Shown: in pieces, positions 1 to 14,398 of the stretch
Layout: each line of letters starts with the position of its first letter
Position numbering within the stretch: the first letter of the stretch is position 1
DNA from: a virus
Strand: one strand, 5' to 3'
DNA: 35,400 nt
Virus record (IMG/VR): IMGVR_UViG_3300031787_000431
Coordinates: 1-35,400 of that record
Translations under genes and position numbers: made by a program
Notes under the pieces: generated by a model
What the model was told of the DNA's origin: nothing
Database searches by the model: none
Seen by the model: only the letters and a program-made list of their open reading frames with translations

Positions 1-15
1 GACGGTGCGCATGAC

Positions 16-210
16 ATGAGCGGCGAGCCCATCAACGTGCTGGAAATTGCCGCCCGCAAAGGCTCGTTCGTGGTCGGCAAGGGATGGCGCAACGAACAAC
101 TGCGCCTGCGCTGCACCAACCTTGTTGCGGCCGGCCTGATGGTCAAGCGGCACGGCGAATACATCATCACCGACAAGGGCCGGAAGGTTCTGGCAGAGGA
201 CACGAAATGA
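16..210 (+). CDS. Small winged-helix-like phage protein
   Basis: A 64-aa protein. Residues of roughly 8-60 read like a winged helix: an N-terminal helix, a recognition-type helix around NEQLRLRCTNLVAAG, and a wing (GEYIITDKGRKVL). That fold suggests DNA binding, but no family can be named. The ATG overlaps the TGA of an upstream frame (ATGA at 16-19), so a preceding gene probably ends just inside the left edge. Its own stop overlaps the next start by ATGA. The role is not known; sitting first in the recombination block it could be a regulator or accessory protein. Confidence 0.6.
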   Translation: MSGEPINVLEIAARKGSFVVGKGWRNEQLRLRCTNLVAAGLMVKRHGEYIITDKGRKVLAEDTK

Positions 211-1037
211 CCGACAACCTCGCCATCTGGAACAAGCTCGGCAAGACCGACCCCGACCAGACCAAAGCGTTCCAGCGCGGCGGTGGGTTCAAGGGAACGG
301 CCATCAAGCCGGTCTATACCGAACAGAAAATGACGGAAGTCTTCGGCCCCTGCGGAACGGGCTGGGGCTTCACGGAGCCGCGCTTTGAACTGGTGACGGC
401 ATCCGAAGGCCAGACCGCCGTCTATTGCTGGCTATCCCTTTGGTACGTCCACAATGGCGTGCGCTCCGAACCCATTCCCGGCGTCGGCGGTGACTTCGTG
501 GTGGTCAAGCAGCGCGACGGCCTGCGGACCAATGACGAGGCGTTCAAGGCCGCGTTCACGGACGCCATCGGCAACGCGATGAAGCACCTGGGCATGTCGG
601 CTGACGTGCACATGGGGCTCTTCGACGACAGCAAATACGTCCGCTCTTTGAGAGAGGACAAGGAACCGGCTGGCAATCCCGCCAGTCGCGGCGCGGGGGC
701 TGTTAGCTCTCCGCAGGCTCCCGCGCCAGCCAATCGAACGCCCGGTGGTGAAACTCTCGCCGGTCGAGAAGCGGGGGCCGTGAAACAAGGGACAGCTCCC
801 GCTTCGATTACCCAGGATCAGGCGACGTTCATTGACGGCAGCAAGCGGGCTCTGGCCCTCGCTGAATCCGTGACGGACGTTGCCGAATGGGAAGAGCGCA
901 ACAAGCCCGAGGCAGCCCGCCTTGGCTTCCGTCGCGACAACCCCGCTGGCGTGGCGCTTCGCAAGGCGATCAACGACCGCATTGCAGAGATTGAGTTGGC
1001 AGACATGCCGGCTGGGCAGTTGGAGGTGGCGGAATGA
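207..1037 (+). CDS. Single-strand annealing protein, Rad52/Sak-like
   Basis: A 276-aa protein. The N-terminal 150 residues hold a compact domain with GGFKGTAIKP, a FGPCGTGWGF block, and NAMKHLGMSADV followed by LFDDSKY. The last part resembles the Rad52/Sak arrangement of an alanine-rich helix followed by a short loop. From about residue 150 the sequence is Pro/Ala/Gly-rich linker and then a helical tail, as in many phage annealing proteins. The expected role is annealing complementary ssDNA in phage recombination, working with NinB and the SSB-like protein downstream. The start at 207 (ATGA overlap) is chosen over an earlier in-frame ATG at 84, which would run through the upstream gene. The Rad52-like assignment is by pattern memory, not by alignment. 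Confidence 0.65.
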   Translation: MTDNLAIWNKLGKTDPDQTKAFQRGGGFKGTAIKPVYTEQKMTEVFGPCGTGWGFTEPRFELVTASEGQTAVYCWLSLWYVHNGVRSEPIPGVGGDFVVVKQRDGLRTNDEAFKAAFTDAIGNAMKHLGMSADVHMGLFDDSKYVRSLREDKEPAGNPASRGAGAVSSPQAPAPANRTPGGETLAGREAGAVKQGTAPASITQDQATFIDGSKRALALAESVTDVAEWEERNKPEAARLGFRRDNPAGVALRKAINDRIAEIELADMPAGQLEVAE

Positions 1038-1375
1038 GCTACGATGTCCGCATCGGAGATTTTGACGCCAACTACACGAGCAACGCTGGTAAGCTGTATC
1101 ATCGCCACATTGAGCGCGATGACGAGACTGGCTTGCAGGCCCTTCACGGCCTCACCGGCAAGCAGGCGCACGCTCTTATCGCGCAGGCTCTGGATCGCAT
1201 CCACCACGAATATGTGAGCGTCAGCAAGTCAGGCGAAATTGGCGCGCGATCCTTTTGCGCTCAATACGACGCGCCGAATGGATGGGGCAGCACTGCGGGG
1301 GCTTTGATCTTCCTCGCCAGGATTGCGGCGGCGTGCGCTGAGAACCCACGCAAACGCGTGTCGGTGTGCGCATGA
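1034..1375 (+). CDS. Conserved phage hypothetical protein, MSYD/NYTSN type
   Basis: A 113-aa protein beginning MSYDVRIGDFDANYTSN and ending with a block around YDAPNGWGSTAGAL followed by a helix (FLARIAAACAENP). I recognise the pattern as a family that recurs in phage early regions, but I know no function for it. It starts on an ATGA overlap with the annealing protein and ends on an ATGA overlap with ninB, so it is translationally coupled to the recombination genes. Confidence 0.7.
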   Translation: MSYDVRIGDFDANYTSNAGKLYHRHIERDDETGLQALHGLTGKQAHALIAQALDRIHHEYVSVSKSGEIGARSFCAQYDAPNGWGSTAGALIFLARIAAACAENPRKRVSVCA

Positions 1376-1767
1376 GCCGCCCAACACTCGTTCTCGTCAA
1401 CCCGGCCATTCGCTCCAAGGCTCACGTCTGGATCGACAAGGCCCCGCCCGGAACCAGGGTCGAGTTTAAGGCTCCGAAGCGGACGCTGCCCCAGAACGCG
1501 AGGATGTGGGCAATGCTCACGGACGTTGCCACGCAGGTTCCGTGGCACGGCCTGAAACTGTCGCCTGACGACTGGAAATTGCTGTTCCTCGACGCTCTCA
1601 AGCGTGAGGTCCGCATGGTGCCAAATCTGGACGGGAACGGCTTTGTCAGCCTTGGCCGCTCGTCCTCGGATCTATCGAAGGCAGAGATGGGCGACCTGAT
1701 GACGCTCATCGAAATGTTCGGCGCGAAGCACGGCGTCAAGTTTCACGAACAGGAGAACGCAGCATGA
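1372..1767 (+). CDS. ninB: NinB family recombination protein
   Basis: A 131-aa protein carrying the NinB signature: LVNPAIRSKA at the N-terminus, a FKAPKRTLPQNARMW block, then WKLLFLDALKRE, a GFVSLGRSSSDLSKAEM segment and a C-terminal IEMFGAKHGVKF. In phage lambda the NinB (Orf) protein acts in recombination mediated by annealing and can substitute for RecFOR. The length is close to the family norm. ATG at 1372 overlaps the previous stop; a GTG two codons upstream (1366) is a possible alternative. It sits between an annealing protein and an SSB-like protein, as expected for a recombination cassette. Confidence 0.9.
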   Translation: MSRPTLVLVNPAIRSKAHVWIDKAPPGTRVEFKAPKRTLPQNARMWAMLTDVATQVPWHGLKLSPDDWKLLFLDALKREVRMVPNLDGNGFVSLGRSSSDLSKAEMGDLMTLIEMFGAKHGVKFHEQENAA

Positions 1768-1997
1768 CTGACCGATTTGACATTACCTTTGCCGAGGACA
1801 AGGGCGACGGGACGAAACGCTGGCACAACGTCGGCGCGATGTTCCCGGCCAAGAACGGCAAAGAGGGTTTTTCGATCAAACTCGTTGGCCCGCACGGCGT
1901 GACCTGGCTGTCCGCCTTCCCCGCGAAGGAGAAGGACCAGCCCCGTCAGGGCTCCCGTCCTGCGGCGCGGGATGACGATTCAGAGATCCCGTTCTGA
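1764..1997 (+). CDS. Mini SSB-like protein with acidic C-terminal tip
   Basis: A 77-aa protein. About 50 residues contain an OB-like beta pattern (RFDITFAEDKGDGTKRWHNVG, split around residues 4-24, and FSIKLVGPHG). A Pro/Arg/Gln linker follows, then the C-terminus DDDSEIPF. That tip matches the acidic peptide bacterial SSB uses to recruit partner proteins. It is much shorter than a canonical SSB (about 150-180 aa), so it is either a minimal ssDNA-binding protein or a mimic of the SSB tip. It overlaps ninB by ATGA and is probably part of the annealing cassette. Confidence 0.6.
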   Translation: MTDRFDITFAEDKGDGTKRWHNVGAMFPAKNGKEGFSIKLVGPHGVTWLSAFPAKEKDQPRQGSRPAARDDDSEIPF

Positions 1998-2007
1998 GGA
2001 GGCGAAG

Positions 2008-2253
2008 ATGACCCTGATCCTTCCCCGCCGCCGTTTCCTCGCTGGCCTTGTCGGCATCATTGCTGCCCCGGCCATCGTGCGCGCGGACAACATCATGAAG
2101 GTGGCGAGCGCGCCTATCGCTTCCGATACCGTCTTCGTGAGCGAATACAGGGATGCGTTCATCCGCGCCTTCGAGGAGCGCCAATTGCACCTCTTGCAGT
2201 GGGTAAGTTCCGTCGAACGTGATGGAGTTTTCTTTCTGGTGAAGGCCTCCTAA
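2008..2253 (+). CDS. Small exported protein with Tat-type signal
   Basis: An 81-aa protein. The N-terminus has a twin-arginine type signal: PRRRFLAGL, then a hydrophobic stretch, ending APAIVRA as a plausible signal peptidase site near residue 25. The mature part is only about 55 residues and has no known domain. The start at 2008 is preferred over an upstream in-frame ATG because GAGGAGG lies just before it. I recall similar Tat-signal miniproteins in rhizobial prophages, but none with an assigned function. Its place between recombination genes is odd for an exported protein. Confidence 0.65.
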   Translation: MTLILPRRRFLAGLVGIIAAPAIVRADNIMKVASAPIASDTVFVSEYRDAFIRAFEERQLHLLQWVSSVERDGVFFLVKAS

Positions 2254-2654
2254 TGGCCCACACCCTCCCCACCTTCGCCCCCATCGGCAGCCTCTTGAAA
2301 GGCGACAGGAAGGCCCGCAAGCCCGCCAAGACGAGAGCCAGGGATGACGCGCACCTTCGCTTCATCGCAAGCCTCCCCTGTGCCGTCTCTGGCGTTCAGG
2401 GGAGGACACAGGCCGCGCATTTACGGTTCGCGTCTGCGGAGTATGGCAAACCCATAACCGGGATCGGCACGAAGGCGTCGGATTGCTGGGTGTTGCCCCT
2501 ATCGGTCGAGATGCACGACGAACAGCACCGCGCCGGGGATGAACTGGCGTGGTGGCAGTCCAAGGGAATTCACGATCCGCTATTGCTTGCTTTGCGCCTG
2601 TACGCCGTGAGCGGGGATGAGGTCGAGGCGCGGAAGATACTCGCGAGGATGTGA
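2253..2654 (+). CDS. DUF968-like putative HNH nuclease
   Basis: A 133-aa protein. After a basic N-terminus (about 25 residues) come LPCAVSG (single cysteine), AAHLRF, a K.SD motif, PLSVEMHDEQHRAGDE and WWQSKGIHDPL. This spaced C, H, HD, H pattern is that of the DUF968 / RecA-dependent-nuclease-like HNH proteins of phage early regions. The metal ligands look intact, although the usual CxxC is reduced to one Cys. It may act in recombination or junction processing. It starts on a TAATG overlap with the preceding gene. Confidence 0.65.
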   Translation: MAHTLPTFAPIGSLLKGDRKARKPAKTRARDDAHLRFIASLPCAVSGVQGRTQAAHLRFASAEYGKPITGIGTKASDCWVLPLSVEMHDEQHRAGDELAWWQSKGIHDPLLLALRLYAVSGDEVEARKILARM

Positions 2655-2824
2655 TGGAAGACAGAAAAGCGATGATTGCGAAAGGCTTTTTCGTGGTCGG
2701 CCATGCGATGCTTTTCGCTGGGCTGGCCGGTGTCTGGATGGACCGTTACGTGCCGGGGTTCACCACGATGGCGCTGGGCATCTTCCTTATCGGCATTCCT
2801 GTCCTGTGGGCGGCTGACCGATGA
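2654..2824 (+). CDS. Two-TM small membrane protein
   Basis: A 56-aa protein, MEDRKAM then a hydrophobic helix (about 9-28), a short loop WMDRYVPGF, and a second helix (about 36-52) ending WAADR. The start overlaps the stop of the DUF968-like gene (TGATG), and the stop overlaps the next gene by ATGA, which supports it as a real coupled gene. No family is recognised. Small inner-membrane proteins in phage early regions are sometimes superinfection-exclusion factors, but nothing here shows that. Confidence 0.6.
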   Translation: MEDRKAMIAKGFFVVGHAMLFAGLAGVWMDRYVPGFTTMALGIFLIGIPVLWAADR

Positions 2825-3072
2825 GCAAGGCACTAGAAGCGGCTGTGAAGGCTGCACACGACCTTCTACTGAAGGAGCCGGGGCCGACATTCCATGACGT
2901 GTCTGTCGGCAAAGATGGCATCCGCGCCATCATCACCGCGTTTCTAGACGCGGCTGCGCGAGACGATGAGGTGTGCAGGCTGGTGTGGGTGGCGACGAAC
3001 TTCGAAGCGAACGAGATCGAAGAGGGGCGCGCTGCGATCCTCGAACTGAAGGAGGCGGTCAATGCATCATGA
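2821..3072 (+). CDS. Hypothetical protein
   Basis: An 83-aa, mostly helical acidic protein with no recognised domain. It starts on an ATGA overlap and its end overlaps the next ORF by 11 bases. Codon use is like its neighbours. Function is unknown. Confidence 0.55.
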   Translation: MSKALEAAVKAAHDLLLKEPGPTFHDVSVGKDGIRAIITAFLDAAARDDEVCRLVWVATNFEANEIEEGRAAILELKEAVNAS

Positions 3073-3313
3073 CTTCGACGAAGACGAGTGGGAGCGGGTC
3101 GTTGAAACTCGTCCCTGCACAAGTTGCAACGGCGATCTTCGGCAATGCAATGGCAGGTGTAACGGATCGTTCTCATACGGGATGAGGCGCAGGACACCCG
3201 CCGAAGTGGCGCGGATTAAGTCCGAACGCCGCATTTCCGCTGAAGACCGCATCTTGGCGGAAGCTGATGCCATTCGCGCACGCCGAGCCGCACTGAAGGA
3301 GAGCGTGGGGTGA
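3062..3313 (+). CDS. Small zinc-ribbon-like protein
   Basis: An 83-aa protein. Near residue 18 begins CTSCNGDLRQCNGRC, giving CxxC...CxxxC, a likely zinc knuckle. It is followed by a basic patch (MRRRTPAEVARIKSERR) and a charged helix. A nucleic-acid-binding accessory role is plausible but not shown. It overlaps the genes on both sides (11 bases before; GTGA after). Confidence 0.55.
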   Translation: MHHDFDEDEWERVVETRPCTSCNGDLRQCNGRCNGSFSYGMRRRTPAEVARIKSERRISAEDRILAEADAIRARRAALKESVG

Positions 3314-3507
3314 CGAGACGCGCCGCGCTCTTCAGGCAGACGGATCTAGCCCGCGCCATTCGCACCGCGAAGGCCGAGGGGATGCCGCTGGCTGGCGTTC
3401 GCATCAGTCCAGAAGGTGAAATCTTCGTCGCCTTCGTCAATGCCGAGCCAAAGCCGGCAACCTCATTCGATGAATGGAAAGCCAGAAGTGACGCGCGTAA
3501 GGCTTAA
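3310..3507 (+). CDS. Small protein upstream of the integrase, possible excisionase-like factor
   Basis: A 65-aa protein starting with GTG in a GTGA overlap. The core RRAALFRQTDLARAIRTAKA followed by GVRISPEGEIFV is a pattern I recall as a conserved ORF directly before tyrosine integrases in alphaproteobacterial phages. Its size, basic N-terminal helix and place next to int fit a directionality factor, but no excisionase family is recognised. Its 3' end overlaps int by 38 bases. Confidence 0.6.
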   Translation: MTRRAALFRQTDLARAIRTAKAEGMPLAGVRISPEGEIFVAFVNAEPKPATSFDEWKARSDARKA

Positions 3508-4561
3508 GGGCCTCAACAAGAAGACCGTGAAGCTCGCGAGCGGCGTGACCGTCACCTATTGGTATGCGTGGAAGGGCGGCCCCAGGTTGCCCGGCAAGCC
3601 CGGCTCCAACGAGTTCATGGCCGCTTATAACAAGGCGGTATCGGCGCGCACTGACAAGAGCGCGGGCACACTGCAAAGCCTTCTGGACGCCTTCCAGAAG
3701 AGCCGCAACTTCACCGGCCTTCGGGACCGGACCCGCCTCGACTATACCGCCAAGATCAAGGCCATCGAAGCCGAGTTCAGCGACTTCCCGCTGGCAGCCC
3801 TTGGGGACAAGCGCACTCGCCACGAGTTCATGGCGTGGCGCGACCGGCTCGCAGAGAAGTCGCTTCGGCAAGCTGATTATGCGTGGGTTGTCCTTGCCCG
3901 CATTCTGTCGTGGTCTAAGGGTCGCGGTCTGATTGATGTCAACCCCTGCGAGCGCGGGGGTAGGCTGTATGACGAGACGCGCGCCGACAAGGTGTGGTCG
4001 GCAGAGGATGAAGCTGCGTTCAAGGCCAAGGCACCGAAGGAATTGGTCCTTGCGCTGATGCTGGCCTTGTGGACCGGACAGCGGCAGGGCGATCTTCTGG
4101 CGCTCGACTGGTCAGCCTATGACGGCGAGAAGATCAGGCTTCAGCAGTCCAAGACCGGAACGCGGGTGACGATCCCTGTCGGCGCTCCGCTGAAGGAAAT
4201 CCTTGATCCCTTGCGTGGTCAGGGGCGGATCATGCTGAACACGCGCGGACACGCATGGACGGAGGAAGGCTTTCGCGCCTCATGGGCCAAGGCGCAGCGC
4301 AAGGCGAAGGTGACAGGAGTGACGTTCAACGACCTGCGCGGCACTGCGATAACCCGGCTGGCACTCGCCGGCTGCACCGAGGCTGAAATCGCGACGATCA
4401 GCGGCCACAGCCTGCGGGACGTGCGCTCAATTCTGGACGCGAACTACCTGCACCGCGACACGCGGCTGGGTGATTCCGCCATGAAAAAGAGGGAAGAACA
4501 CGAGAAGAAATTCCCGAACGACTTCCCGAACGCGAAAAAGCGTGGTAGCGTGCAAGAGTGA
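3470..4561 (+). CDS. int: Tyrosine-type phage integrase
   Basis: A 363-aa integrase. An N-terminal beta/DNA-binding region is followed by a SAM-like core-binding domain (about 70-170) and a catalytic domain. Seen catalytic residues: Arg about 205 (TGQRQGDLL), Arg about 290 in NDLRGT, His about 313 (SGHSLRDV), and the nucleophile Tyr about 326 (ANYLHRD). The box II residue normally His (HDLR) is Asn about 287. It should recombine attP with attB; the tRNA-Gln fragment directly downstream is the probable attP core. The ATG at 3470 is preferred over 3416, which lies deeper inside the previous gene. Confidence 0.93.
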   Translation: MNGKPEVTRVRLKGLNKKTVKLASGVTVTYWYAWKGGPRLPGKPGSNEFMAAYNKAVSARTDKSAGTLQSLLDAFQKSRNFTGLRDRTRLDYTAKIKAIEAEFSDFPLAALGDKRTRHEFMAWRDRLAEKSLRQADYAWVVLARILSWSKGRGLIDVNPCERGGRLYDETRADKVWSAEDEAAFKAKAPKELVLALMLALWTGQRQGDLLALDWSAYDGEKIRLQQSKTGTRVTIPVGAPLKEILDPLRGQGRIMLNTRGHAWTEEGFRASWAKAQRKAKVTGVTFNDLRGTAITRLALAGCTEAEIATISGHSLRDVRSILDANYLHRDTRLGDSAMKKREEHEKKFPNDFPNAKKRGSVQE

Positions 4562-4565
4562 TTTT

Positions 4566-4662
4566 CGCAGTTGAATCAACGCTTCGGCGGTGGCTGGGGG
4601 ACCTGGATTCGAACCAAGATTCTCGGAGTCAGAGTCCGTTCTAATCCGTTGATTCGACTGCG
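4566..4662. repeat. 16-bp inverted repeat framing the attP core
   Basis: CGCAGTTGAATCAACG (4566-4581) and CGTTGATTCGACTGCG (4647-4662) are inverted copies with one mismatch. The 65 bases between them hold the tRNA-Gln 3' fragment, and the centre of the repeat (4614) falls at the middle of that fragment. They may be integrase binding sites around the strand-exchange region. The symmetry is seen directly; the role is inferred. Confidence 0.7.
4591..4638 (-). other. attP core: 3' half of tRNA-Gln(CUG)
   Basis: Read on the minus strand, this is the anticodon arm with loop CTCTGAC (anticodon CTG), a T-arm with TTCGAAT, the 3' acceptor strand TCCCCCA, discriminator G and an encoded CCA. There is no D-arm and no 5' acceptor strand (which would be TGGGGGA) on the other side, so it is not an intact tRNA gene. 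Phages that integrate into tRNA genes carry such a 3' fragment to restore the gene. It lies 30 bases after int, as expected for attP. Host target: tRNA-Gln(CUG). Confidence 0.8.
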
Positions 4663-4692
4663 CTTTGGTCCCGAAACAGAGGGAAAGCGCAG

Positions 4693-5259
4693 ATGACAGA
4701 TCAAGACGTTACGCTGGAAATCCCGAACGCTTCCCCCTCCCGAGACACGCCGGGAGGGGGGGGTTCCCGAGGGGAGGCGGGCGGGTGGCGCAAGATCGAC
4801 GGCATCTTTCCCACTGACCGACTTCTGCTCTTGTCTGCGGTCGGATGGCCACCTGCGGCAATGCGGGGCGAGCCGTGGCCTGTGAAGGTCGGCGGCTGGT
4901 GGGATGAACGCTGGCACGTCTTCGGCGCGTCGTGGGAGCCTACCCACTGGCGAGAACTGCCCGAGCCGCCCGAATGGTCCCCGTGGCGCGAGATGGCGAC
5001 AGCGCCGATGGATGGGACGGTCATCGAGATCATGGCCGAGGGCTATGACCGGCCATTCCTCATCAGGGGCGAACTTGGTTTCGTTGACGGCAGCGGGGCC
5101 GATTGCTGGTCGTGGGTGGCCGTTGAAGAGGGCAAGCACCCACCGTGCTGGTCTGGTGGCGCGTACTGGGACAGCAACGAAAACGAGATGCCATCAACCC
5201 CACCGCTGCGGTGGCGTCACTCCGCCCTCTCCCACCCCTCCGCAGGAGACCGGACATGA
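4693..5259 (+). CDS. DUF551-like protein with two similar modules
   Basis: A 188-aa protein. After a Gly-rich N-terminus (about 30 residues) there are two tryptophan-rich modules. The first begins GGWRKIDGIFPTDRLLLL and ends HWRELPEPP; the second begins SPWREMATAPMDGTVIEI and ends PPLRWRH. They resemble the W-x-x-I-x-x-A-P-x-D-G...HW.PLP repeats of DUF551-type phage proteins, whose function is unknown. The N-terminal coding part contains a perfect 8-bp stem and a run of eight G (4762-4769). It is the first gene after attP in the rightward accessory block. Confidence 0.65.
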   Translation: MTDQDVTLEIPNASPSRDTPGGGGSRGEAGGWRKIDGIFPTDRLLLLSAVGWPPAAMRGEPWPVKVGGWWDERWHVFGASWEPTHWRELPEPPEWSPWREMATAPMDGTVIEIMAEGYDRPFLIRGELGFVDGSGADCWSWVAVEEGKHPPCWSGGAYWDSNENEMPSTPPLRWRHSALSHPSAGDRT

Positions 5260-5639
5260 GTGAACACCCCATGACCGCGCTGGCAGAGAAGGTGGAGGCA
5301 CTTGCCGGGCCGTGCCGCGAGACGGATGCAAAGATTTACGTCGCTGTCTACATCACACGGGGTGAGACAGGCCGTCCGATGGATGACGTTTACGAGCCTG
5401 CCATCGACGTGCCCCGCTACACCGCCTCCGTCGATGCTGTCCTCGCGCTGATCGCGGAGAAGATGCCGCGGGTTAGGTGCGAGATCGTTGGCGGCCTCGA
5501 CTATTCATCCGCTCGTATCGTCACCGGATGGGGGGCTCGTCGGCGAGCGCTGACATACACCGTCGATCGTCCCGACAATTACGCCGCGATCTGCGCCGTC
5601 GCCGCCTTCCTCCGCGCCATGGAGAACGACAATGGCTGA
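5256..5639 (+). CDS. Hypothetical protein, MTALAEKVEA family
   Basis: A 127-aa protein with a Cys pair absent and no known domain. It has an N-terminal helix (MTALAEKVEALAG), a beta-rich middle (AKIYVAVYITRGE), and a C-terminal helix (AAICAVAAFLRAMEND). It begins on an ATGA overlap with the DUF551-like gene; an internal ATG at 5271 matches the start of the deleted paralogue at 8182 and could be used instead. The end overlaps the next gene by 8 bases. Confidence 0.6.
   Translation: MSEHPMTALAEKVEALAGPCRETDAKIYVAVYITRGETGRPMDDVYEPAIDVPRYTASVDAVLALIAEKMPRVRCEIVGGLDYSSARIVTGWGARRRALTYTVDRPDNYAAICAVAAFLRAMENDNG
5264..5299 (+). repeat. 36-bp direct repeat, copy 1 (copy 2 at 8175-8210)
   Basis: The 36 bases from 5264 to 5299 recur exactly at 8175-8210. 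Each copy covers the start of an ORF encoding MTALAEKVEA. A further near-identical block of 15 bases occurs downstream of both copies (5429-5443 and 8220-8234). This indicates a duplicated gene; see the remnant at 8182-8262. Confidence 0.85.
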
Positions 5640-6012
5640 GACGCCGCGCGATTGGCTCATCCGCAAGGGTGGCTATTTCTATCGACCCGACTTCTGCGGC
5701 TACACGACCAGGAAGGACCAAGCAGGCCGCTACACGGAAGCAGAGGCGCGCAGCGAGGCTGCTGTCGAGCCGTGGCACATGAAAGCCATCCATGAAGGCG
5801 AATGGCCCGACACGCCAAAGACAGATGGCACCGTATCCGCCTCCACCCACACCCGCGCCATGGAGGCGCTGAGGGAGGCGCGGGAGGTGCTGGCGGAAAT
5901 CAGAGACGGCTACTTGGCCGACCAATCCGCCGAGCAGCAATTCGTGTGGGCTCAGCGCCGCGCAATCACCGCCCTCTCCCGCATCGCCGCCATCCTGAAG
6001 GACGAGCCATGA
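5632..6012 (+). CDS. Conserved phage hypothetical protein
   Basis: A 126-aa protein. The N-terminal DWLIRKGGYFYRPDFCGYTT with GRYTEAEA is a motif I recall in small proteins of alphaproteobacterial phages. The C-terminal half is a long amphipathic helix, possibly coiled coil. No function is known. It overlaps the preceding gene by 8 bases and the following one by ATGA. Confidence 0.6.
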   Translation: MAETPRDWLIRKGGYFYRPDFCGYTTRKDQAGRYTEAEARSEAAVEPWHMKAIHEGEWPDTPKTDGTVSASTHTRAMEALREAREVLAEIRDGYLADQSAEQQFVWAQRRAITALSRIAAILKDEP

Positions 6013-6809
6013 CCCGCGTCGTCTCGTGGTTCTCGTGCGGGGCCGCAAGTGCGGTCGCCACCAAGCTCGCCTTGCAGGCTGCCCGTCTGCCGCACGGCGC
6101 AGGCGAGGTCGTGATCGTCTATTGCGACACGTCCAAGCGGGAGCACCCGGACAATATGCGGTTTCTCCGCGACTGCGAAGCGTGGTTCGGTCAGCCGATC
6201 CTGATCCTCGGCAATGACGAGTACGAGCGCGACCCAGATGTCGTGTTTCGCAAGACCCGCTTTCTTGTCGGGCCGTCCGGTGCTCGCTGCACCGCCGAGT
6301 TGAAGAAGAAGGTCCGGTGGGGCTTTCAGCGCCCCGACGACGTTGTGATCCTCGGCTACACCAGCGAAGAGCACAAGACGCGCTTCGAGCGGACGCAGAA
6401 GGCGGAGCCGATGACGCGGTTCTGGCCAATCCTGCACGAGCACGGCCTGTCCAAGGGCGATTGCCTGGCGATGCTCGAAAGGGCCGGCATTGAACTGCCC
6501 GCCATGTACCGCCTCGGCTACCAGAACAATAACTGCATCGGCTGCGTCAAAGGACAGGCCGGCTACTGGAACAAGATCCGGCGCGACTTCCCCGAGCGGT
6601 TTGCAGAGATGGCGCAGATCGAGCGCGAGCTTGGCCGGGCCATCTGCAAGCGCGAGTGGAAGGAGGACGGCGTGCGCCGGCTGGAGCGCATCCCACTCGA
6701 CCGCCTGCCGCCAGACCTTGGGCGCTACGAAGACGAGCAGGAAATCCAGTGCGGCATCCTTTGCCACACGACCGAACTGACGCCAGCAAAGAAGCGGAGG
6801 GCAGCATGA
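6009..6809 (+). CDS. PP-loop / PAPS-reductase-like protein
   Basis: A 266-aa protein. The PP-loop is at the N-terminus (VVSWFSCGAASAVATKLA, about residues 4-21), followed by VVIVYCDTSKREHPDN and the conserved region GARCTAELKKKVRW. In the C-terminal half NNNCIGCVKGQAGYW gives CxxC, and CGILC lies near the end, so a metal or Fe-S site is possible. The fold activates a substrate by adenylation; family members act on sulfate, tRNA or DNA (for example the phosphorothioation enzyme DndC). The phage substrate cannot be read from sequence. No other sulfur-modification gene is nearby. Confidence 0.75.
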   Translation: MTRVVSWFSCGAASAVATKLALQAARLPHGAGEVVIVYCDTSKREHPDNMRFLRDCEAWFGQPILILGNDEYERDPDVVFRKTRFLVGPSGARCTAELKKKVRWGFQRPDDVVILGYTSEEHKTRFERTQKAEPMTRFWPILHEHGLSKGDCLAMLERAGIELPAMYRLGYQNNNCIGCVKGQAGYWNKIRRDFPERFAEMAQIERELGRAICKREWKEDGVRRLERIPLDRLPPDLGRYEDEQEIQCGILCHTTELTPAKKRRAA

Positions 6810-7030
6810 GGTTTTGTCGAGACTGCAAATGGTTTGATGGCGGTGACGGCACGCGCTGCACCAACCCGTCTATGGCGACCGTTGACGCCGTTCAAGGGCC
6901 GCTGTCCGGCCACCCGAAGGGGTTGCGGGAGGATGGCGGGCGTTGCGGCCCTGGTGCTTCCGGCTACGAGCCCCGCGTGATCTGGTGGCGTCGTCTGTTC
7001 CCCACACCTCCCCACGGCGAGGAGGGGTAG
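6806..7030 (+). CDS. Small Cys-rich protein
   Basis: A 74-aa protein, MRFCRDCKWFDGGDGTRC then a Cys at about residue 47. The four cysteines (CxxC...C...C) make a small metal site likely. The family is common in phages and of unknown role. It overlaps the PP-loop gene by ATGA and converges on the minus-strand gene at 7041. Confidence 0.6.
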   Translation: MRFCRDCKWFDGGDGTRCTNPSMATVDAVQGPLSGHPKGLREDGGRCGPGASGYEPRVIWWRRLFPTPPHGEEG

Positions 7031-7040
7031 CCATGGCGGG

Positions 7041-7493
7041 CTACCGGCCCAACTTCTCGCGGCGGGCAATCTCGCGCTCGACAGATTCGCGGATGAAGTC
7101 CGAGCGCTTCTCCTTTTCGGCCAGCAAGGCGTCGATCCGCGCAAGCGTCCCCTGAGGGAAGCGCGCTGGCGTCTGCTCGTCGTTGATCCGCTTCCGTCCC
7201 ACGGTGGGTCTGGCCTTCTCGCCTTCGCCATTGCACGCGACAGCCTCACGGGCGGCCTCGGTTGCTGTGGCGGCATCTACCGCAAACCATTCGCCATGGG
7301 CGTGGGCGTGCCTCAGAAGCCAATGCGCTCGCAACTCTATATCGCGCGATCTCTCAACCGGAACCGGGAACGTAGCATGAATTTTTACCCGAGCCGCGTG
7401 ACCGGTTTGGATGCCTCGCAACCGACTTCCGGGCTCTTTCGCCAGCCCGATCTTCATCGGCCCGGCTTCCGCTCCTGCCACATAAATCTGCAT
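7041..7493 (-). CDS. GIY-YIG (T5orf172-like) domain fused to ribbon-helix-helix domain
   Basis: A 150-aa minus-strand gene inside a plus-strand block. Residues 1-75 look like the T5orf172/MUG113 branch of GIY-YIG: IYVAG at the start, PMKIGLA, SRLRGIQTG, a conserved E and H, and GEWFAV. Residues about 97-150 look like a ribbon-helix-helix DNA-binding domain: GRKRINDEQ, ARFPQGTLARIDALLA, RSDFIRESVEREI. RHH proteins usually bind palindromic operators and control their own genes, and a nested palindrome lies just upstream (7499-7532), between this gene and the divergent 7570 gene. It may be a regulator, a nuclease, or both. Confidence 0.75.
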   Translation of the reverse strand: MQIYVAGAEAGPMKIGLAKEPGSRLRGIQTGHAARVKIHATFPVPVERSRDIELRAHWLLRHAHAHGEWFAVDAATATEAAREAVACNGEGEKARPTVGRKRINDEQTPARFPQGTLARIDALLAEKEKRSDFIRESVEREIARREKLGR

Positions 7494-7498
7494 TTGTA

Positions 7499-7532
7499 GA
7501 TATCACCTATCTTGACAAGATTATCTGATATC
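7499..7532. promoter_or_regulatory. Divergent promoter region with nested palindromic operator
   Basis: An AT-rich gap between divergent genes. ATCTTG-A-CAAGAT (7509-7521) is a perfect 13-base palindrome, and GATATC copies at 7499-7504 and 7527-7532 flank it almost symmetrically. TTGACA (7512-7517) sits inside the palindrome as a rightward -35; a weak -10 (CTAAAT, 7535-7540, 17-bp spacer) follows. Binding at the palindrome would block the -35. The RHH domain of the gene at 7041-7493 is the obvious candidate binder. Confidence 0.65.
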
Positions 7533-7569
7533 AACTAAATAGACGATGTCACTTAAGGAGGCAAGAGCA

Positions 7570-7959
7570 ATGCCGCGTACCATTGAATCCTGCATCAAAT
7601 CCGCCCGCCGCGCTTACAAACTAGAGCGCCGAGAACTCCGCGGAGGAGAAGTTTCCTGGATGGCCGTCGATCGCAGCGGCGTCGGGAGAGGCGTCATCGG
7701 GACCAAAATCGAGGGGGAGGACTACCTCGAAAAAACAGTCATGTTTCATGCGCTAAAGTCGTTCGACCCGAAGTACGACTGGCACGACCATGACTGGCAC
7801 ACGCTCGGCGGGCCAGCCGAAAGTCGCTGTCGGCAGATGATTGCTTGGCGGATGGAGCGCGAAGCCGCCGCCGAGGCGCAGCATGGATTTAGAACACTTG
7901 CCCTCTTGATGGCGGGGCAGGTGCGCGCTGCCGCCAGGAAGGGTAGCGCCAATGGCTGA
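7570..7959 (+). CDS. Hypothetical protein at the head of the second early cluster
   Basis: A 129-aa basic protein, Trp- and Arg-rich, with YDWHDHDWHT in the middle that could bind a metal. No family is recognised. The start at 7570 is chosen because AAGGAGG lies 8 bases before it; an in-frame ATG at 7546 lies upstream of that site. It is the first gene downstream of the palindromic promoter region, so it heads the transcript running to 10728. Confidence 0.65.
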   Translation: MPRTIESCIKSARRAYKLERRELRGGEVSWMAVDRSGVGRGVIGTKIEGEDYLEKTVMFHALKSFDPKYDWHDHDWHTLGGPAESRCRQMIAWRMEREAAAEAQHGFRTLALLMAGQVRAAARKGSANG

Positions 7960-8185
7960 CGAATGGACCGATGCCGACCGTGAGCGGTTTGCCGGCATCT
8001 TGGGTCGATCCTCCAACCGCGCCCGCAATCAGCGAGCCGAAGAGGGCCGCCGCCGCGCGGCTCTCAACTTCATCGCTCCTGTCTTCGATGACGTGATGCG
8101 CCGAAGTGACGGCGACCTCCCGACCGGCGCGAGGGAACTGGTCGCGGGCGCAATGCTCGGCCTCACCCGAAAGGACACCCCATGA
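7952..8185 (+). CDS. Hypothetical protein
   Basis: A 77-aa charged, mostly helical protein (MADEWTDADRERFAGIL..., with an Arg-rich middle). It overlaps the previous gene by 8 bases and the small remnant at 8182 by ATGA. No domain is recognised. Confidence 0.55.
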   Translation: MADEWTDADRERFAGILGRSSNRARNQRAEEGRRRAALNFIAPVFDDVMRRSDGDLPTGARELVAGAMLGLTRKDTP

Positions 8186-8262
8186 CCGCGCTGGCAGAGA
8201 AGGTGGAGGCCCTCTCCCGCGTCGACGCTGTCCTGAAGGAGGACGAAAATGGTCAGCGATGA
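8182..8262 (+). pseudogene. Internally deleted copy of the 5256-5639 gene
   Basis: A 26-codon frame, MTALAEKVEALSRVDAVL then KEDENGQR. Its first 29 bases lie in the 36-bp exact repeat of 5264-5299, and its SRVDAVL part matches the SVDAVL part of that gene. The stretch between the two blocks is 129 bases there and 9 bases here, an in-frame loss of 120 bases. The end (EDENG) also resembles the parental C-terminus (MENDNG). It still has coupled start and stop overlaps, so it may be translated as a peptide. Confidence 0.6.
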
Positions 8263-8506
8263 CTTTTGCGAGCACGACTGGCCCGGCAGCGGGTGCAAGG
8301 AATGTGCGGCAGCGTGGGAGCGAGAGAAGGCCAAGCGCGGCGAGCGCATACGTCGCTGCATTCACTGCCTGCCGCTTTCGGAGCCGTGTTCCGACTGCCT
8401 TGACGATGCGGCAGCCGCCCAGGAGCGGGAACAATCGACACTGCGGAGGCGCATATCTCGCGCGCTGAAAGCCGCCCTCACCAAACGAGGCACAAGCAAT
8501 GTCTGA
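8249..8506 (+). CDS. Small double zinc-knuckle-like protein
   Basis: An 85-aa protein with CEHDWPGSGCKEC near the N-terminus and CIHCLPLSEPCSDC in the middle, giving two Cys/His clusters that could bind zinc. A basic helix (RRRISRALKAAL) follows. A nucleic-acid-binding role is plausible. It overlaps the remnant and the following gene (8 bases). Confidence 0.6.
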   Translation: MVSDDFCEHDWPGSGCKECAAAWEREKAKRGERIRRCIHCLPLSEPCSDCLDDAAAAQEREQSTLRRRISRALKAALTKRGTSNV

Positions 8507-8849
8507 AATTCCAGAAATCGCACCGCCGTCATTTGATACTGGAGACGAACCGCCGCACGCGCCCGCGTCGCATATGTCCCCGCAAGCAAAAGCGGTGGCC
8601 GCGCGCATGGAAGCCGATCTAGCGGTCGCCGCCAAGGACGCCGAGATCACCCGCCTCCGGGCGCTGGTCGAGGAGGCGCGGGAGGCGTTGGAGCCGTTCG
8701 TTCCGCCGCATCAGTATTGGATGGACGAGTATGCGAACGACGCGCTCACGCCGCTCAGTCGCGTCACATGGGGCGACATTCGCCGCGCCCGCGCCACCCT
8801 CACCAAGGCCAAGGCCAAGGCCAAGGCCAAGGCCAAGGAGCAGTCATGA
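8499..8849 (+). CDS. Coiled-coil protein ending in a Lys-Ala repeat
   Basis: A 116-aa protein. The N-terminal 30 residues are Pro-rich. A coiled-coil segment (AEITRLRALVEEAREALEP) follows, and the C-terminus is a run of KA dipeptides coded by a hexanucleotide repeat (see 8805-8838). The tail resembles a histone-like basic tail and could bind DNA. The repeat number is probably variable between isolates. No family is recognised. Confidence 0.55.
   Translation: MSEIPEIAPPSFDTGDEPPHAPASHMSPQAKAVAARMEADLAVAAKDAEITRLRALVEEAREALEPFVPPHQYWMDEYANDALTPLSRVTWGDIRRARATLTKAKAKAKAKAKEQS
8805..8838 (+). repeat. AAGGCC hexanucleotide tandem repeat
   Basis: Five perfect AAGGCC units (8805-8834) and a partial sixth. 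The period of six keeps the frame, so a gain or loss of units changes only the length of the KA tail of the 8499-8849 protein. Confidence 0.9.
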
Positions 8850-9475
8850 CCGAAGACCTGCGAAAGGCCGCAGAGGCGGCGACACCGGGGCCGTGGGTCG
8901 GCTTTTCCGACAAGGGCAAGCTGGCGGCCATCATGCCGGCTGGGCGGCCCGGTGACGTGTGCGTCTTCGAGCAGCCACCGTCTGATGAAGACGGGCGCTT
9001 CATGCTGCTCGCCAACCCCGCCGCGATCCTCGCCCTCTACGCCGAGCTGGACGCCGCCATAGCCCGCGCCGAGAAGGCGGAGGGGGAGATTACCCACTAC
9101 CGCCAAGACACCGGCTACGTGCTCGGATGGAATGCGGGATGGGATGAGGCCTTCGGTCGCCTGAAATTCCCGACGATGCTGCGGAAAATGTGGAGCGGTG
9201 GCGAGGTCCAACGCTGGCTTGACGAGCAAAAGGCCGAGCAGAACGGACCCCCGGACGGATCGCTGTCCGAGCGTCTGGCCGCCGCCGAAGCCTCCCTCGC
9301 CGCCATTACGGCAGAGAGGGATGCGTTGCAGGCGGACAACGAGCGACTGGCAGCGGAAGCCTACCGCGACACGCTGGTCAAGGTTGTCCGGGTGGAACTG
9401 GCGCAGGAGAAGCGCCTCCGACTTAGCTACGAGCGCAAACTTGCTGCCCTCAAGGAGCCCACCAATGCCGAGTGA
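8846..9475 (+). CDS. Ea22/Ead-like phage protein
   Basis: A 209-aa protein. The N-terminal LRKAAEAATPGPW block, followed by DGRFMLLANPAAILALYAEL, is the signature of the lambdoid Ead/Ea22-like family. The C-terminal half is a long coiled coil. Family members are accessory early proteins of unknown biochemistry. It starts on an ATGA overlap and ends overlapping the next gene by 11 bases. Confidence 0.75.
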   Translation: MTEDLRKAAEAATPGPWVGFSDKGKLAAIMPAGRPGDVCVFEQPPSDEDGRFMLLANPAAILALYAELDAAIARAEKAEGEITHYRQDTGYVLGWNAGWDEAFGRLKFPTMLRKMWSGGEVQRWLDEQKAEQNGPPDGSLSERLAAAEASLAAITAERDALQADNERLAAEAYRDTLVKVVRVELAQEKRLRLSYERKLAALKEPTNAE

Positions 9476-10004
9476 CGAGATGGTCGAGAAGGCGCTTCAG
9501 CCAGAGGTCGAGGACGACAACGGCTCCCTCTGCGTGATGTGGCACAGGAGCGGAAAGATGTACGCGCTGACCACGAAGCCAGACGGATCGGTCGTTGCTA
9601 CCGTGTCGCCGTTTTCGCGGTCGGCCCCGCCAGTCGCGGTCGGTGTCGAGGCGCTGTTCGCCGCCCTCACCGCCGCCATGGGGGAGGAGAAGCCGGTGGC
9701 GTGGCGGTCACGCTGGACCTACCCAGACGTATCGAGCGCCTGGATTATCACGCCGCATCGCCCCCAAGACACGACGCCACGCGGGCATCTTGCCACCTAC
9801 GTGTGCGAGCCCCTCTTCGCCCACCCGTCCAGAGAGGACGTGGTGGAGGAGACGATCCCCGATGCGGCGGTTGAGGCATTCCTGCTCTCGTTCTACCCCG
9901 GCATGACCGTCGAGGAGATGGCGATGCACAACGGCGAAGACCTGCGTCCGGGCGCGCGAACTGCTCTTGCCGCCGCCATCCGCAAGCTGGGGGAGCGGTC
10001 ATGA
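9465..10004 (+). CDS. Hypothetical protein
   Basis: A 179-aa protein. The start at 9465 overlaps the Ea22-like gene by 11 bases. The first 50 residues look beta-rich (LCVMWHRSGKMYALTT). A middle segment with WRSRWTYPDVSSAWIIT and YVCEPLFAHP resembles a motif seen in small phage proteins that end in '...PLYAHP'. A helical C-terminus follows (PGARTALAAAIRKLG). No function is known. Confidence 0.6.
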   Translation: MPSDEMVEKALQPEVEDDNGSLCVMWHRSGKMYALTTKPDGSVVATVSPFSRSAPPVAVGVEALFAALTAAMGEEKPVAWRSRWTYPDVSSAWIITPHRPQDTTPRGHLATYVCEPLFAHPSREDVVEETIPDAAVEAFLLSFYPGMTVEEMAMHNGEDLRPGARTALAAAIRKLGERS

Positions 10005-10243
10005 CATGGGCCGATAAGTCACGACACGCCATAGAGGCGGCCCTTCGCACCCTGCCAGGGGATGCGAACGAGGACGACAGGCGCAAGGCCATCGACGCAG
10101 CCTATCCGTTCGGAGAACGCAGCCTTTTCCCCTACAAGGCGTGGCTTCGCGTCCGTCGAGAATACCTGCGGCCGAAGAACGGCGGGGTGCCTCGGGGATA
10201 CATGTCGCCGCTGGACAGGGCGAAGCTCAGGGCTATCGGATGA
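10001..10243 (+). CDS. Conserved small phage protein
   Basis: An 80-aa protein, MTWADKSRHAIEAAL then AYPFGERSLFPYKAWLRVRREYL. I recall this arrangement (MTWADKSR..., YPFG...YKAW...REYL) in other alphaproteobacterial phages. It is basic and Trp/Tyr-rich and of unknown role. It is coupled by ATGA overlaps on both sides. Confidence 0.65.
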   Translation: MTWADKSRHAIEAALRTLPGDANEDDRRKAIDAAYPFGERSLFPYKAWLRVRREYLRPKNGGVPRGYMSPLDRAKLRAIG

Positions 10244-10404
10244 TATTGCCCTACATCTACCGCTGGGATCGACAGGGCCGGAAGGGCCAGCGGTGCAACG
10301 TCACGGCGCGGGGGGCTATGAACTCCTGCCGCGTCGAGTTCGATGACGGCTACCGGATGATCACCAGCCGGAACGCTATCAGGAAGGCGAAGGACGATGA
10401 CTGA
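10240..10404 (+). CDS. Conserved small phage protein
   Basis: A 54-aa protein, MILPYIYRWDRQGRKGQRC ... NSCRVEFDDGYRMITSRNA. It reads as a compact beta barrel-like domain; the pattern recurs in phages but has no known function. The start overlaps the previous stop by ATGA. It was found by following the overlap chain. Confidence 0.65.
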   Translation: MILPYIYRWDRQGRKGQRCNVTARGAMNSCRVEFDDGYRMITSRNAIRKAKDDD

Positions 10405-10537
10405 TCTGGTCGGGGCTCGCCGGGGTGGGATATGCGGGCAGACGGTGGATGCTGTCTGGCGCAACGAACACGCCCCAGAACGAGCGGCCTACCGCGCCAT
10501 GATCGAAGCCGGCAGGATCAGGGAGGACGGGAAGTGA
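10397..10537 (+). CDS. Very small hypothetical protein
   Basis: A 46-aa frame, MTDLVGARRGGICGQTVD..., helical in its second half (APERAAYRAMIEAGRI). It overlaps the previous gene by 8 bases and the next by GTGA, which is the main support. No family is recognised. Confidence 0.5.
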   Translation: MTDLVGARRGGICGQTVDAVWRNEHAPERAAYRAMIEAGRIREDGK

Positions 10538-10728
10538 CGGAAGCAGACGCAGTTGTCGCGCTTGGCCTTGCGCTCCAAGGGATGCTTCTATCGATCAAGG
10601 GGATGGCGTGGGTGTGGCGAACGATGACGCCACTAATCGGTCAGGCGCGGCAGTCTGAGCTACATGCCCGGCAAGCTCAGGCCCGCGCCGAGGCGTATCG
10701 GCAAGAGGCGTATCGGTTGGCGACCTAA
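10534..10728 (+). CDS. Small hydrophobic/helical protein, last rightward gene
   Basis: A 64-aa protein starting with GTG in a GTGA overlap. A hydrophobic segment (VVALGLALQGMLLSIKGMAWVW, about residues 7-28, listed in two parts: VVALGLALQGML and LSIKGMAWVW) may be a membrane helix. A Gln/Ala/Arg-rich helix follows. It ends in a 4-base overlap with the convergent DUF6378 gene, with no terminator between them. Confidence 0.55.
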   Translation: MTEADAVVALGLALQGMLLSIKGMAWVWRTMTPLIGQARQSELHARQAQARAEAYRQEAYRLAT

Positions 10729-11054
10729 GCCCCGTCATCCTGCCAAGAATCAGTAAGGGCGCGGGCGAGGCTGACTACCTTGTCCGCTGCGTTGCCTTCG
10801 GTGGCGACCTCGATACCGCAGGCGGCATAGCCAGCGGCGTCCACGAATGAATCGGCGTGCGTCGGGTCATAGTTGGCCCGCGCGACCTTGAGCAGGATCA
10901 TCGCCAGCGCGACCTGATGCGGCTCTACCCTAACGCCGAACAGCGTTGACCAGAGGCCAGCGACGGCGCGGAAGTTTGATTCCGGCTTGCCGTAGTTAGC
11001 GCCCCTGGATGCGACGGCCTGCTCTGCGGCTTTAAGACACTCAACCCGGTTCAT
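10725..11054 (-). CDS. DUF6378-type phage protein
   Basis: A 109-aa protein, MNRVECLKAAEQAV, then RGANYGKPESNF, LWSTLFGV, QVALAMILLKVARANYDP, and HADSFVDAAGYAACGIEVA. This matches the DUF6378 family of phage proteins, which pair HGD/YGxPExNF with a DxWxDxxGYxAxG motif and look like degenerate MazG-type helices. The function is not established. ATG at 11054 overlaps the metallophosphoesterase stop (ATGA). It is the last gene of the leftward late block. Confidence 0.8.
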   Translation of the reverse strand: MNRVECLKAAEQAVASRGANYGKPESNFRAVAGLWSTLFGVRVEPHQVALAMILLKVARANYDPTHADSFVDAAGYAACGIEVATEGNAADKVVSLARALTDSWQDDGA

Positions 11055-12262
11055 ACATTCACCTTGTGTCGTCCAACTTCGCCGCGTTCCGAGTGCAGGA
11101 CGATAGCTTGCATGGATCGTCCAGCCCGATAGCCCATTGAACTGTGCCACGCGTCGCGGGCTGCCGTGGTCTGGAAACTCTCGACCACCACGCCGCCCAC
11201 CTCGACCGCTGTCTGTGTGTGGATATGTCCCGTCAAGACCGCGCGAAATTTCGTGGCTCCCCAGTCTTCGGGGCGGGATGCAGCCATGATCATAGGCAAA
11301 TCTTTCATCTTGGCAAGGTCCCCATGGGTTCCGCCCAAGAGATTAGCGCCAAATCGCCACCACCAGAAGCGTGACGGATCAGTATCCACAGTCACTCTTT
11401 CGTCATTGCGGAACCAAGCCCACAAGGCCAATGCTATTGCGCCCGCCGTGATTTCGTCATGGTTGCCGGGCAAGATGCGTGCAATGACTTTGCCGTGGCG
11501 CTCTAGAGCCTTCTCAACACAGAAGATCATGAACAGCAAGGCGGTCTGACGGACCTTGGAATGCCGGGTGTCGACGTCCAGAGCGTGACCAGACTTCGCC
11601 GTCCGGTTCTCGGGATTGTCAGCGTGCAAAAGATCGCCAAGCCCAAGGATGACCGCCGTCCCGCTGGCAGGGGTTGCCCCGACCAGCCGGGAGAACGTCT
11701 CACGGTTCAGCGCATCGGCAATGGAGAGGTCATAATCCTCGCCGGCTTCCGGCCCGTAGGCATAGAGCCCGAAGTGGCTGTCAGCTATGGGGAAGATCGT
11801 CGCCAGATCATCAGCGACAACGGGAGGCGGTGCAGAGGCTCTGGGAGCCTCGTAGGCGGCAAAAGCCTCGCGGATGGTGTCTACCCATTGCTGCGGGCTG
11901 ATCTCGCCTTCCTTGGTCTTGATCCACCGCTGAATGACCCTGCCATCAGCACCGACTAGCGCACTCTCGCCTTTGACCACATGCCCGTCAGGGAGTGTGT
12001 ATTCCTCGCCAGCGGCAGGGCCTTGCTTGATCCACTCCCGCTGTGTCTCCCCGTCCGGCCCTAGCTGGGTCGATGTGGATTTAATCTCGAAACCGGGAAG
12101 CACTGGCTTGGTCCCGAGAAGACCGCGACGGGATGCGATCTGCAATCGGCTGGAAGCGGTCGTACGGGCGATCCCGAGGACTTCCGCTGCCTTCGTAGCA
12201 CCGAGGGCTTGAACGGCCTGTGCGGTCTTTAGAAGGTCTTCGTCTGAAGCGTAAGCCGGCAT
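11051..12262 (-). CDS. Calcineurin-like metallophosphoesterase with N-terminal HTH
   Basis: A 403-aa protein. Residues about 8-45 form a helix-turn-helix (TAQAVQALGATKAAEVLGIA, RTTASSRL). A linker of about 100 residues follows, then a phosphoesterase core with IADSHFG, LGLGDLLHADN, ILPGNHDE, GGTHGD and LTGHIHT, the metal ligands of the calcineurin-like fold. All five motifs are intact. The HTH fusion suggests action on DNA, and homologues occur in phages next to lysis genes. The start at 12262 uses the TGATG overlap; an in-frame ATG at 12286 is less likely. Confidence 0.85.
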   Translation of the reverse strand: MPAYASDEDLLKTAQAVQALGATKAAEVLGIARTTASSRLQIASRRGLLGTKPVLPGFEIKSTSTQLGPDGETQREWIKQGPAAGEEYTLPDGHVVKGESALVGADGRVIQRWIKTKEGEISPQQWVDTIREAFAAYEAPRASAPPPVVADDLATIFPIADSHFGLYAYGPEAGEDYDLSIADALNRETFSRLVGATPASGTAVILGLGDLLHADNPENRTAKSGHALDVDTRHSKVRQTALLFMIFCVEKALERHGKVIARILPGNHDEITAGAIALALWAWFRNDERVTVDTDPSRFWWWRFGANLLGGTHGDLAKMKDLPMIMAASRPEDWGATKFRAVLTGHIHTQTAVEVGGVVVESFQTTAARDAWHSSMGYRAGRSMQAIVLHSERGEVGRHKVNV

Positions 12263-12495
12263 CAGCGTGGCGCGCTCATGACCCATGGGATAAGGCCGCT
12301 AACCTTCGATGCGAGGAAGCCGCCAATTCCCACCATGATGAGGACAACCCACCGGACGCCCTTGGCCTGCGTAAGGAGGTCATGAACCTCCGTCAGTTTG
12401 GTATCCATGAGGCCAATCTTCTCGTTGAGATGCCCCACCTGTGTTTCAAGGCGGATCACCTTGTCGCGGATTTCCATGCTGTCGCCCAAGGTCAC
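12262..12495 (-). CDS. XhlA/holin-like coiled-coil membrane protein
   Basis: A 77-aa protein. The first 45 residues are a coiled coil (DKVIRLETQVGHLNEKIGLM, DTKLTEVHDLL), followed by a membrane helix (about 52-70, WVVLIMVGIGGFLASKV) and a short basic end. This matches XhlA-type proteins found with holins and endolysins. The start is unsure: GTG at 12495 overlaps the protease stop (GTGA), while a TTG at 12489 has GGAGG at ideal spacing. Confidence 0.6.
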   Translation of the reverse strand: MTLGDSMEIRDKVIRLETQVGHLNEKIGLMDTKLTEVHDLLTQAKGVRWVVLIMVGIGGFLASKVSGLIPWVMSAPR

Positions 12496-13097
12496 CTCCC
12501 GAGCATTCGACAAATTGCGGAAGACGGGACCATGAGCGTGATGCCGGAGACGGGGGCGAAGGGCGTTGCCATGCCGCCAACAAAGACCCCCACGAGTTTG
12601 CCGGCCATGGAGAAGACGCCGCCACCGGACATGCCGGGCATCCCGGTAATGTCCATGATGTGCGCGACCTTCCAGATGGCCCGCTCATCTTCCTTGGTGG
12701 AAATGAACCCGTTGAACTTGGCGAAGGTGATGTTGCCGGGGTTGCCGAAAGCCTGGATCGCATCACCCTGACGGAGCGTCCCGCAGGCGATCTGTGCAGC
12801 CGGGAGAACTGCGCCTTCGTATTGGATCACGGCGATGTCGTGGGCCTTCGCAATCCAAAGGACTTTGGCCGGCATTTTCTTGCCGTCGTGGGTTTCTATT
12901 TCGATGGAAGGGGCACCCTCGACCACATGGGCTGCCGTGAGGACCATGCGGTTGCCGATCACGGTCCCCGATCCATGACCGCCGCCAACGTGGATTTTCA
13001 CGGAAAACCGTTGAGGATCGACGGGGGCACAAGCCAACAGGGAGAGGCAGAACAGGGCAACGATAGCCCATGCACCAATGTAAGCAGCGCGTGTCAT
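12492..13097 (-). CDS. Trypsin-like serine protease, predicted lipoprotein
   Basis: A 201-aa protein. A signal sequence ends in a lipobox SLLAC with Cys 23. The protease domain shows the chymotrypsin-fold triad: GSGTVIGNRMVLTAAHVV (His 57), KAHDIAVI (Asp 87) and GMPGMSGGGVF (Ser 157). The catalytic residues look intact. It is predicted to be exported and anchored to a membrane facing the periplasm. It lies between the holin and the XhlA-like gene, coupled by ATGA and GTGA overlaps, so it is probably expressed with lysis. It could help degrade envelope proteins, as a substitute for a spanin, or be a lysogeny/virulence factor. Confidence 0.85.
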   Translation of the reverse strand: MTRAAYIGAWAIVALFCLSLLACAPVDPQRFSVKIHVGGGHGSGTVIGNRMVLTAAHVVEGAPSIEIETHDGKKMPAKVLWIAKAHDIAVIQYEGAVLPAAQIACGTLRQGDAIQAFGNPGNITFAKFNGFISTKEDERAIWKVAHIMDITGMPGMSGGGVFSMAGKLVGVFVGGMATPFAPVSGITLMVPSSAICRMLGR

Positions 13098-14262: not shown

Positions 14263-14366
14263 CGCTCGCGCTCCCTGATGTTCCGGTTCATGTCGAGGAC
14301 GAAGAGGCCCAACAGGGCGAGCGTGATCAGACCAACGGCGATGATCGCCTCGGCGGGAAGGTCCAT
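14259..14366 (-). CDS. Tiny TM protein before the endolysin
   Basis: A 35-aa frame, MDLPAEAIIAVGLITLALL then GLFVLDMNRNIRERER. It has one membrane helix (about 6-26) and a basic tail. The stop overlaps the endolysin ATG (ATGA), so it should be translationally coupled. It may act in lysis (a holin partner or pinholin-like peptide), but only its place supports that. Confidence 0.6.
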   Translation of the reverse strand: MDLPAEAIIAVGLITLALLGLFVLDMNRNIRERER

Positions 14367-14369
14367 GGC

Positions 14370-14398
14370 TTGCCTCTCGGGCAGCAACCGGCCATAAA
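14370..14398 (+). promoter_or_regulatory. Candidate rightward promoter for the moron-like gene
   Basis: TTGCCT (14370-14375), a 17-bp spacer, and CATAAA (14393-14398) lie 30 bases before the ATG at 14429 on the strand opposite to the late genes. Each hexamer matches the consensus at four of six positions. This is a weak but well placed candidate. Confidence 0.35.

Follow-up and report, generated by a model that had tools for sequence, protein, structure and literature searches.

A probable lambda-type attachment site built on the 3' half of tRNA-Gln(CUG) in an uncultured temperate phage of Hyphomicrobiales

Introduction

The closest described counterparts of the locus reported here are the attP of phage lambda, the anticodon-centred attP class and the attachment region of EBPR podovirus 2. 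In lambda, where Int is an integrase of the heterobivalent type (PMC4880445), the site carries the IHF sites H1, H2 and H' and the arm sites P1-P2 and P'1-P'3. The anticodon-centred class accounts for 2083 of the 3919 islands catalogued by Islander (PMC4383910); in it a 3' tRNA fragment restores the gene and crossover is presumed to take place in the anticodon loop. EBPR podovirus 2 (JF412295), which among named phages comes nearest in the int region studied here, carries an annotated "pseudo tRNA-Trp" in the place of attP.

The material of this work is an IMG/VR virus record classed as linear, analysed as a single stretch of 35.4 kb (the window). About 220 bp of it (4511-4729) very probably constitute a lambda-type attP of a temperate podovirus-like phage, with putative integrase arm sites and IHF-like sites arranged as follows:

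3470 to 4561, plus strand: tyrosine integrase gene (Pfam PF00589, 2.4e-12; PHROG integrase, 8e-36)
4511 to 4520, plus strand: putative arm site P1, TTCCCGAACG, in tandem with P2 at a spacing of 12
4523 to 4532, plus strand: putative arm site P2, TTCCCGAACG; an equivalent tandem pair lies in most of 61 regions compared
4566 to 4581, plus strand: left arm of the inverted repeat, holding the start of the IHF-like site at 4574-4586
4574 to 4586, plus strand: IHF-like site AATCAACGCTTCG of the left repeat arm, 8/9
4591 to 4638, minus strand: core, the 48-nt 3' half of tRNA-Gln(CUG) from anticodon stem to CCA, exact in 12 Hyphomicrobiales tRNA-Gln genes
4628 to 4634, minus strand: anticodon loop CTCTGAC, the presumed 7-bp crossover overlap by analogy with the anticodon-centred attP class (PMC4383910)
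4642 to 4654, minus strand: IHF consensus match AATCAACGGATTA, within/beside the right repeat arm, 9/9
4647 to 4662, minus strand: right arm of the inverted repeat, 16 nt, pairing with 4566-4581
4668 to 4677, plus strand: putative arm site P'1, GTCCCGAAAC, at +77 from the tRNA 3' end (relatives +76 to +79)
4699 to 4711, plus strand: IHF-like H' site GATCAAGACGTTA, 8/9, at +108 from the tRNA 3' end, between P'1 and P'2
4720 to 4729, plus strand: putative arm site P'2, ATCCCGAACG, at +129 from the tRNA 3' end (relatives +128 to +131; L207 +120)

The locus resembles lambda attP in its integrase type, in having putative arm sites to either side of the core and three matches to the IHF consensus, and in the arm site that follows H' by 8 nt, which is also the distance at which P'2 begins in the window. 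It differs from lambda in that its core is a tRNA 3' half, in an extra putative arm site between core and H', in an inverted repeat made up of two core-facing IHF-like sites, and in putative arm sites that overlap int. The integrase of EBPR podovirus 2 is 59% identical and the offsets of H' and P'2 equal those of the window, whereas that phage targets tRNA-Trp, its int and attP are separated by a small endonuclease gene, and the P-side IHF-like site has the opposite orientation. The annotated pseudo tRNA-Trp of that phage (L024, 6619-6701) is itself an attP core, set in the same layout of sites. With respect to the Islander class there is no difference of substance, except that the window is a phage whose integrated form has not yet been seen.

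Results

Integrase and putative arm sites

The integrase reading frame is open from 3416, with the family alignment beginning near 3470, and its PF00589 score of 47.4 bits lies above the cut-off of 27.1. Alignment with 11 relatives, which are 51-68% identical to it, places the catalytic R-K-HxxR-H-Y set at R205, K228, R290, H313 and Y326. At residue 287 the His of HxxR is replaced by Asn, and the motif reads NDLR in the window, L003 and L004 and HDLR in the remaining 9 of the 11 aligned relatives.

Arm sites were compared across 61 attachment regions, those of the window and of its relatives. Of these, 49 carry a tandem word over the 3' end of int with at least 7/8 identity; the spacing is mostly 11-12 bp, and the pair mostly starts 65-81 bp ahead of the tRNA 3' end. 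In the window exact copies of TTCCCGAACG occur at 4511 and 4523 only. In most two-sided loci, the window among them, copies of each phage's own word recur on the P' side, at +76 to +79 and at +128 to +131, and when words were re-paired among phages only 1 of 2000 permutations matched P to P' as well as the true pairing within loci, the words having been partly chosen by eye and matching P' sites being missing in 4 of the 12 two-sided loci. At the level of sequence, repeated putative arm sites are present on both sides of the core, as in a lambda-type attP, and these direct repeats are the best candidates for the arm sites of the integrase. The distance from the tandem pair to the tRNA end falls into two clusters one helical turn apart, at about 66-71 and 77-81 bp, and the window belongs to the longer class.

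IHF-like sites and the inverted repeat

IHF-like sites were scored against the consensus WATCAANNNNTTR of PMC8942017, which was used because the table of PMC6907758 apparently swaps the IHF and H-NS motifs. That the consensus comes from enterobacteria counts against the IHF reading. As a control, the same scan applied to lambda attP found exactly three sites, and IHF-alpha genes are present in 15 of 15 relevant genomes checked. Between the arm and core sites of the window the predicted IHF sites match this enterobacterial consensus at 9/9, 8/9 and 8/9. The one at 4642-4654 is the only perfect match in the whole window, and it has a counterpart at the same position in L088 (9/9) and L214 (8/9); the right-arm zone as a whole holds IHF-like sites in 3 of 12 loci, the window included, where 0.32 would be expected, in a small set of sequences. 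The P-side zone is enriched for IHF-like sites on both strands, to a degree that 0 of 300 shuffles equalled, and the left-arm element takes the place of the AAATCAA of the relatives at a distance from the tRNA end that is greater by one helical turn. In the P' region a match of at least 8/9 was found in 8 of 12 loci (window included) against 0.27 by shuffle; most of these, together with a weaker 7/9 match in L088, lie at +107 to +109, which is the H' offset of the relatives apart from L207 (+99). Two of the three IHF-like sites have AAAGCGCAG in front of ATCAA, and the third has TTTTCGCAG there (window 4684-4692, the right arm on the minus strand, and the left arm), while in relatives GCGYAG precedes AAATCAA. 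This element is possibly a part of the IHF site or else a separate excisionase site.

The original prediction had described 16-base inverted repeats with one mismatch around the tRNA block, and this was borne out: the arms 4566-4581 and 4647-4662 agree at 15 of 16 positions with 65 nt between them, and in 400 dinucleotide shuffles of 4506-4735 (230 bp) the best 16-nt inverted repeat never exceeded 14 matches. That the centre of the repeat coincides with that of the tRNA block also holds as a measurement (4614 against 4614.5), but the biologically relevant anticodon loop is centred 17 bp away, at 4631. Crossover in this loop is likely by analogy with the anticodon-centred class; the loop is flanked by the anticodon stem CGGA/TCCG, which supplies candidate core-type half sites, and the identity of the 48-mer ends only 4 nt past it. 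If crossover does occur there, the inverted repeat is not symmetric about the point of strand exchange, since the centre of the loop is 50 bp from the inner end of one arm and 16 bp from that of the other, and the natural symmetry at the crossover would be that of the anticodon stem.

These distances bear on the proposal that the repeat forms a symmetric pair of integrase (or excisionase) sites around the core, which we consider unlikely. Its appeal comes from a repeat that exceeds chance and is centred on the tRNA block, from a near-palindrome, GTTGANTCAAC, found in each arm and nowhere else in the window, and from the outer bases CGCAG, which fall outside the 13-bp IHF consensus, together with the recurrence of AAAGCGCAG before H'. 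Apart from the unequal distances to the loop, it has to contend with an arm word unlike the TTCCCGAACG repeats and with the IHF-like sites found at equivalent places in relatives. Among the 35 stretches with inverted repeats of similar spacing that a search of the collection retrieved, by inspection only the sister contig of the window has a tRNA core and no other viral contig does; the repeat alone is therefore not the signature of a class. The idea of symmetrical integrase sites accordingly gives way to a different assignment, in which the family points to the direct repeats as arm sites and to repeat arms of IHF type. The repeat is probably better explained as a pair of IHF sites, and IHF would bind at its arms. 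As a repeated operator GTTGANTCAAC was rejected, being carried in the window by the two repeat arms alone.

The tRNA-Gln core and the host target

The predicted 48-base 3' half of tRNA-Gln(CUG) was located exactly at 4591-4638 on the minus strand. ARAGORN reports zero tRNA genes in the window, and the block is therefore a fragment and no full tRNA gene stands at the site; Rfam at E<=1 returned nothing tRNA-like in the region, where a weak and spurious miRNA match was the only hit. A search of a genome collection covering 84,980 species gave 12 records with the exact 48-mer, all of them MAGs of Hyphomicrobiales type (four Phreatobacter-type including PHREA1, two Pseudolabrys, one Rhodoplanes, four Rhizobiales/Hyphomicrobiales and one labelled Rhizobium). 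In all 12 it is the 3' end of a complete tRNA-Gln(CTG) gene, with 48/48 identity from the anticodon stem to CCA, and in the window this fragment adjoins int. Because the phage 48-mer equals the last 48 bases of the host gene, the host 5' part joined to the phage 3' half would restore that gene.

Among 397 genomes of the host order, 23 carry a relative of the integrase at E<=1e-50, and 22 of these 23 Hyphomicrobiales relatives adjoin a complete tRNA for Gln, Met, Lys, Arg, Phe or Cys. Of the four relatives that lie beside tRNA-Gln, three (G127, G243 and G067) are accompanied, 17-55 kb away, by another copy of the tRNA-Gln 3' end, as would be expected of the fragment displaced by an integrated element; G223 has one copy only. 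At G243 the P' arm words of the far end (L087) differ from those of the int-proximal end, L087 and L092 being the two tRNA-Gln copies, and the span may therefore hold two elements in tandem.

The sequence evidence identifies the site as an attP by which a temperate phage would insert into a tRNA-Gln gene of Hyphomicrobiales. The original prediction that the attP names its host target is upheld by the 48-mer in MAGs and by the relatives beside tRNAs. Of the genome search that it had suggested, the match of the 3' bases succeeded in 12 MAGs and the related prophage did not appear there: none of the 12 has a close relative of the integrase (best 34%), and a prophage of the window virus was therefore not found. 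One of these MAGs (G009, locus L132), in which a related integrase is absent, encodes a major capsid protein 44% identical to that of the window phage.

Phages often carry tRNA genes, and the failure of ARAGORN to see a full tRNA would also suit a decayed or captured phage tRNA gene that is not an attachment site. We regard this as highly improbable, given that the fragment comprises the 3' half alone, with 48/48 identity to host genes, that it follows int directly within a conserved layout of arm and IHF-like sites, and that relatives of the integrase adjoin complete tRNAs.

Genome context

The portal and capsid proteins of the window fall into the Pfam SU10 portal and SU10 major capsid families. 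A sister contig (G001) represents the same virus in permuted form: its positions 1-20000 equal window 3789-23788 at 99.985%, and it starts at window 3789, crosses the right end of the window, continues through 7.94 kb absent from the window and re-enters at window base 1. The virus genome is therefore circular or permuted, of about 43.3 kb, and the attP lies in its interior. Alignment to G001 also revealed a perfect 36-nt direct repeat in the window at 5264-5299 and 8175-8210.

That the site is attL or attR, the edge of a prophage whose assembly took in little host DNA, a thought encouraged by the linear classification of the window and by the frequency of prophage fragments among IMG/VR contigs, has a negligible chance of being right and is excluded unless the contigs are misassembled, since phage genes lie on both sides, the tRNA 5' half is absent and the sister contig is permuted across the site. 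The earlier view that this is not a simple prophage edge is in agreement, and of the two findings named beforehand as refuting it, a full tRNA gene at the site and prophage boundaries elsewhere, neither turned up.

Discussion

The attP described here is of an ordinary and known kind, lambda-type and placed in a tRNA anticodon loop. The sequence itself shows the integrase, the identity of the core, the intact tRNA of the host, the permuted genome, the fixed positions of the arm words and the matches to the IHF consensus; the crossover position, the protein binding and the activity that follow are inferred. Cleavage by the lambda-type tyrosine integrase, whose gene lies just upstream, would fall in the anticodon-loop part of the tRNA-Gln(CUG) 3' half, and this half would recombine with the tRNA-Gln gene of the host. 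The 3' half brought by the phage would take the place of the displaced host one, and a complete tRNA would therefore be restored. The direct-repeat arm sites, of which P1 and P2 overlap the end of int and P'1 and P'2 lie past the core, would be held by the N-terminal domain of the integrase. Three bends would be introduced by host IHF: two at the sites that flank the core, which together make up the 16-bp inverted repeat, and a third at the site between P'1 and P'2.

Taken together, the relatives raise a tentative picture, which we hold to be possible and no better than that, of an integrase family with a fixed attP geometry in which the arm word changes (CCCGAACG, CCCAACTG, CCCGACC, GCAAACC, GTAAACC), the target changes between tRNAs (Gln, Met, Lys, Trp, Arg, Phe, Cys) and the arm-core distance moves in steps of about one helical turn, with the two IHF-like sites that face the core in the window perhaps being a symmetric variant of the intasome undescribed for lambda.

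The locus allows an uncultured temperate phage to be assigned to a host order and to an exact chromosomal site from sequence alone. Its relatives keep a constant scaffold while their arm words and tRNA targets vary, and this natural series is useful for studying how integrase specificity changes.
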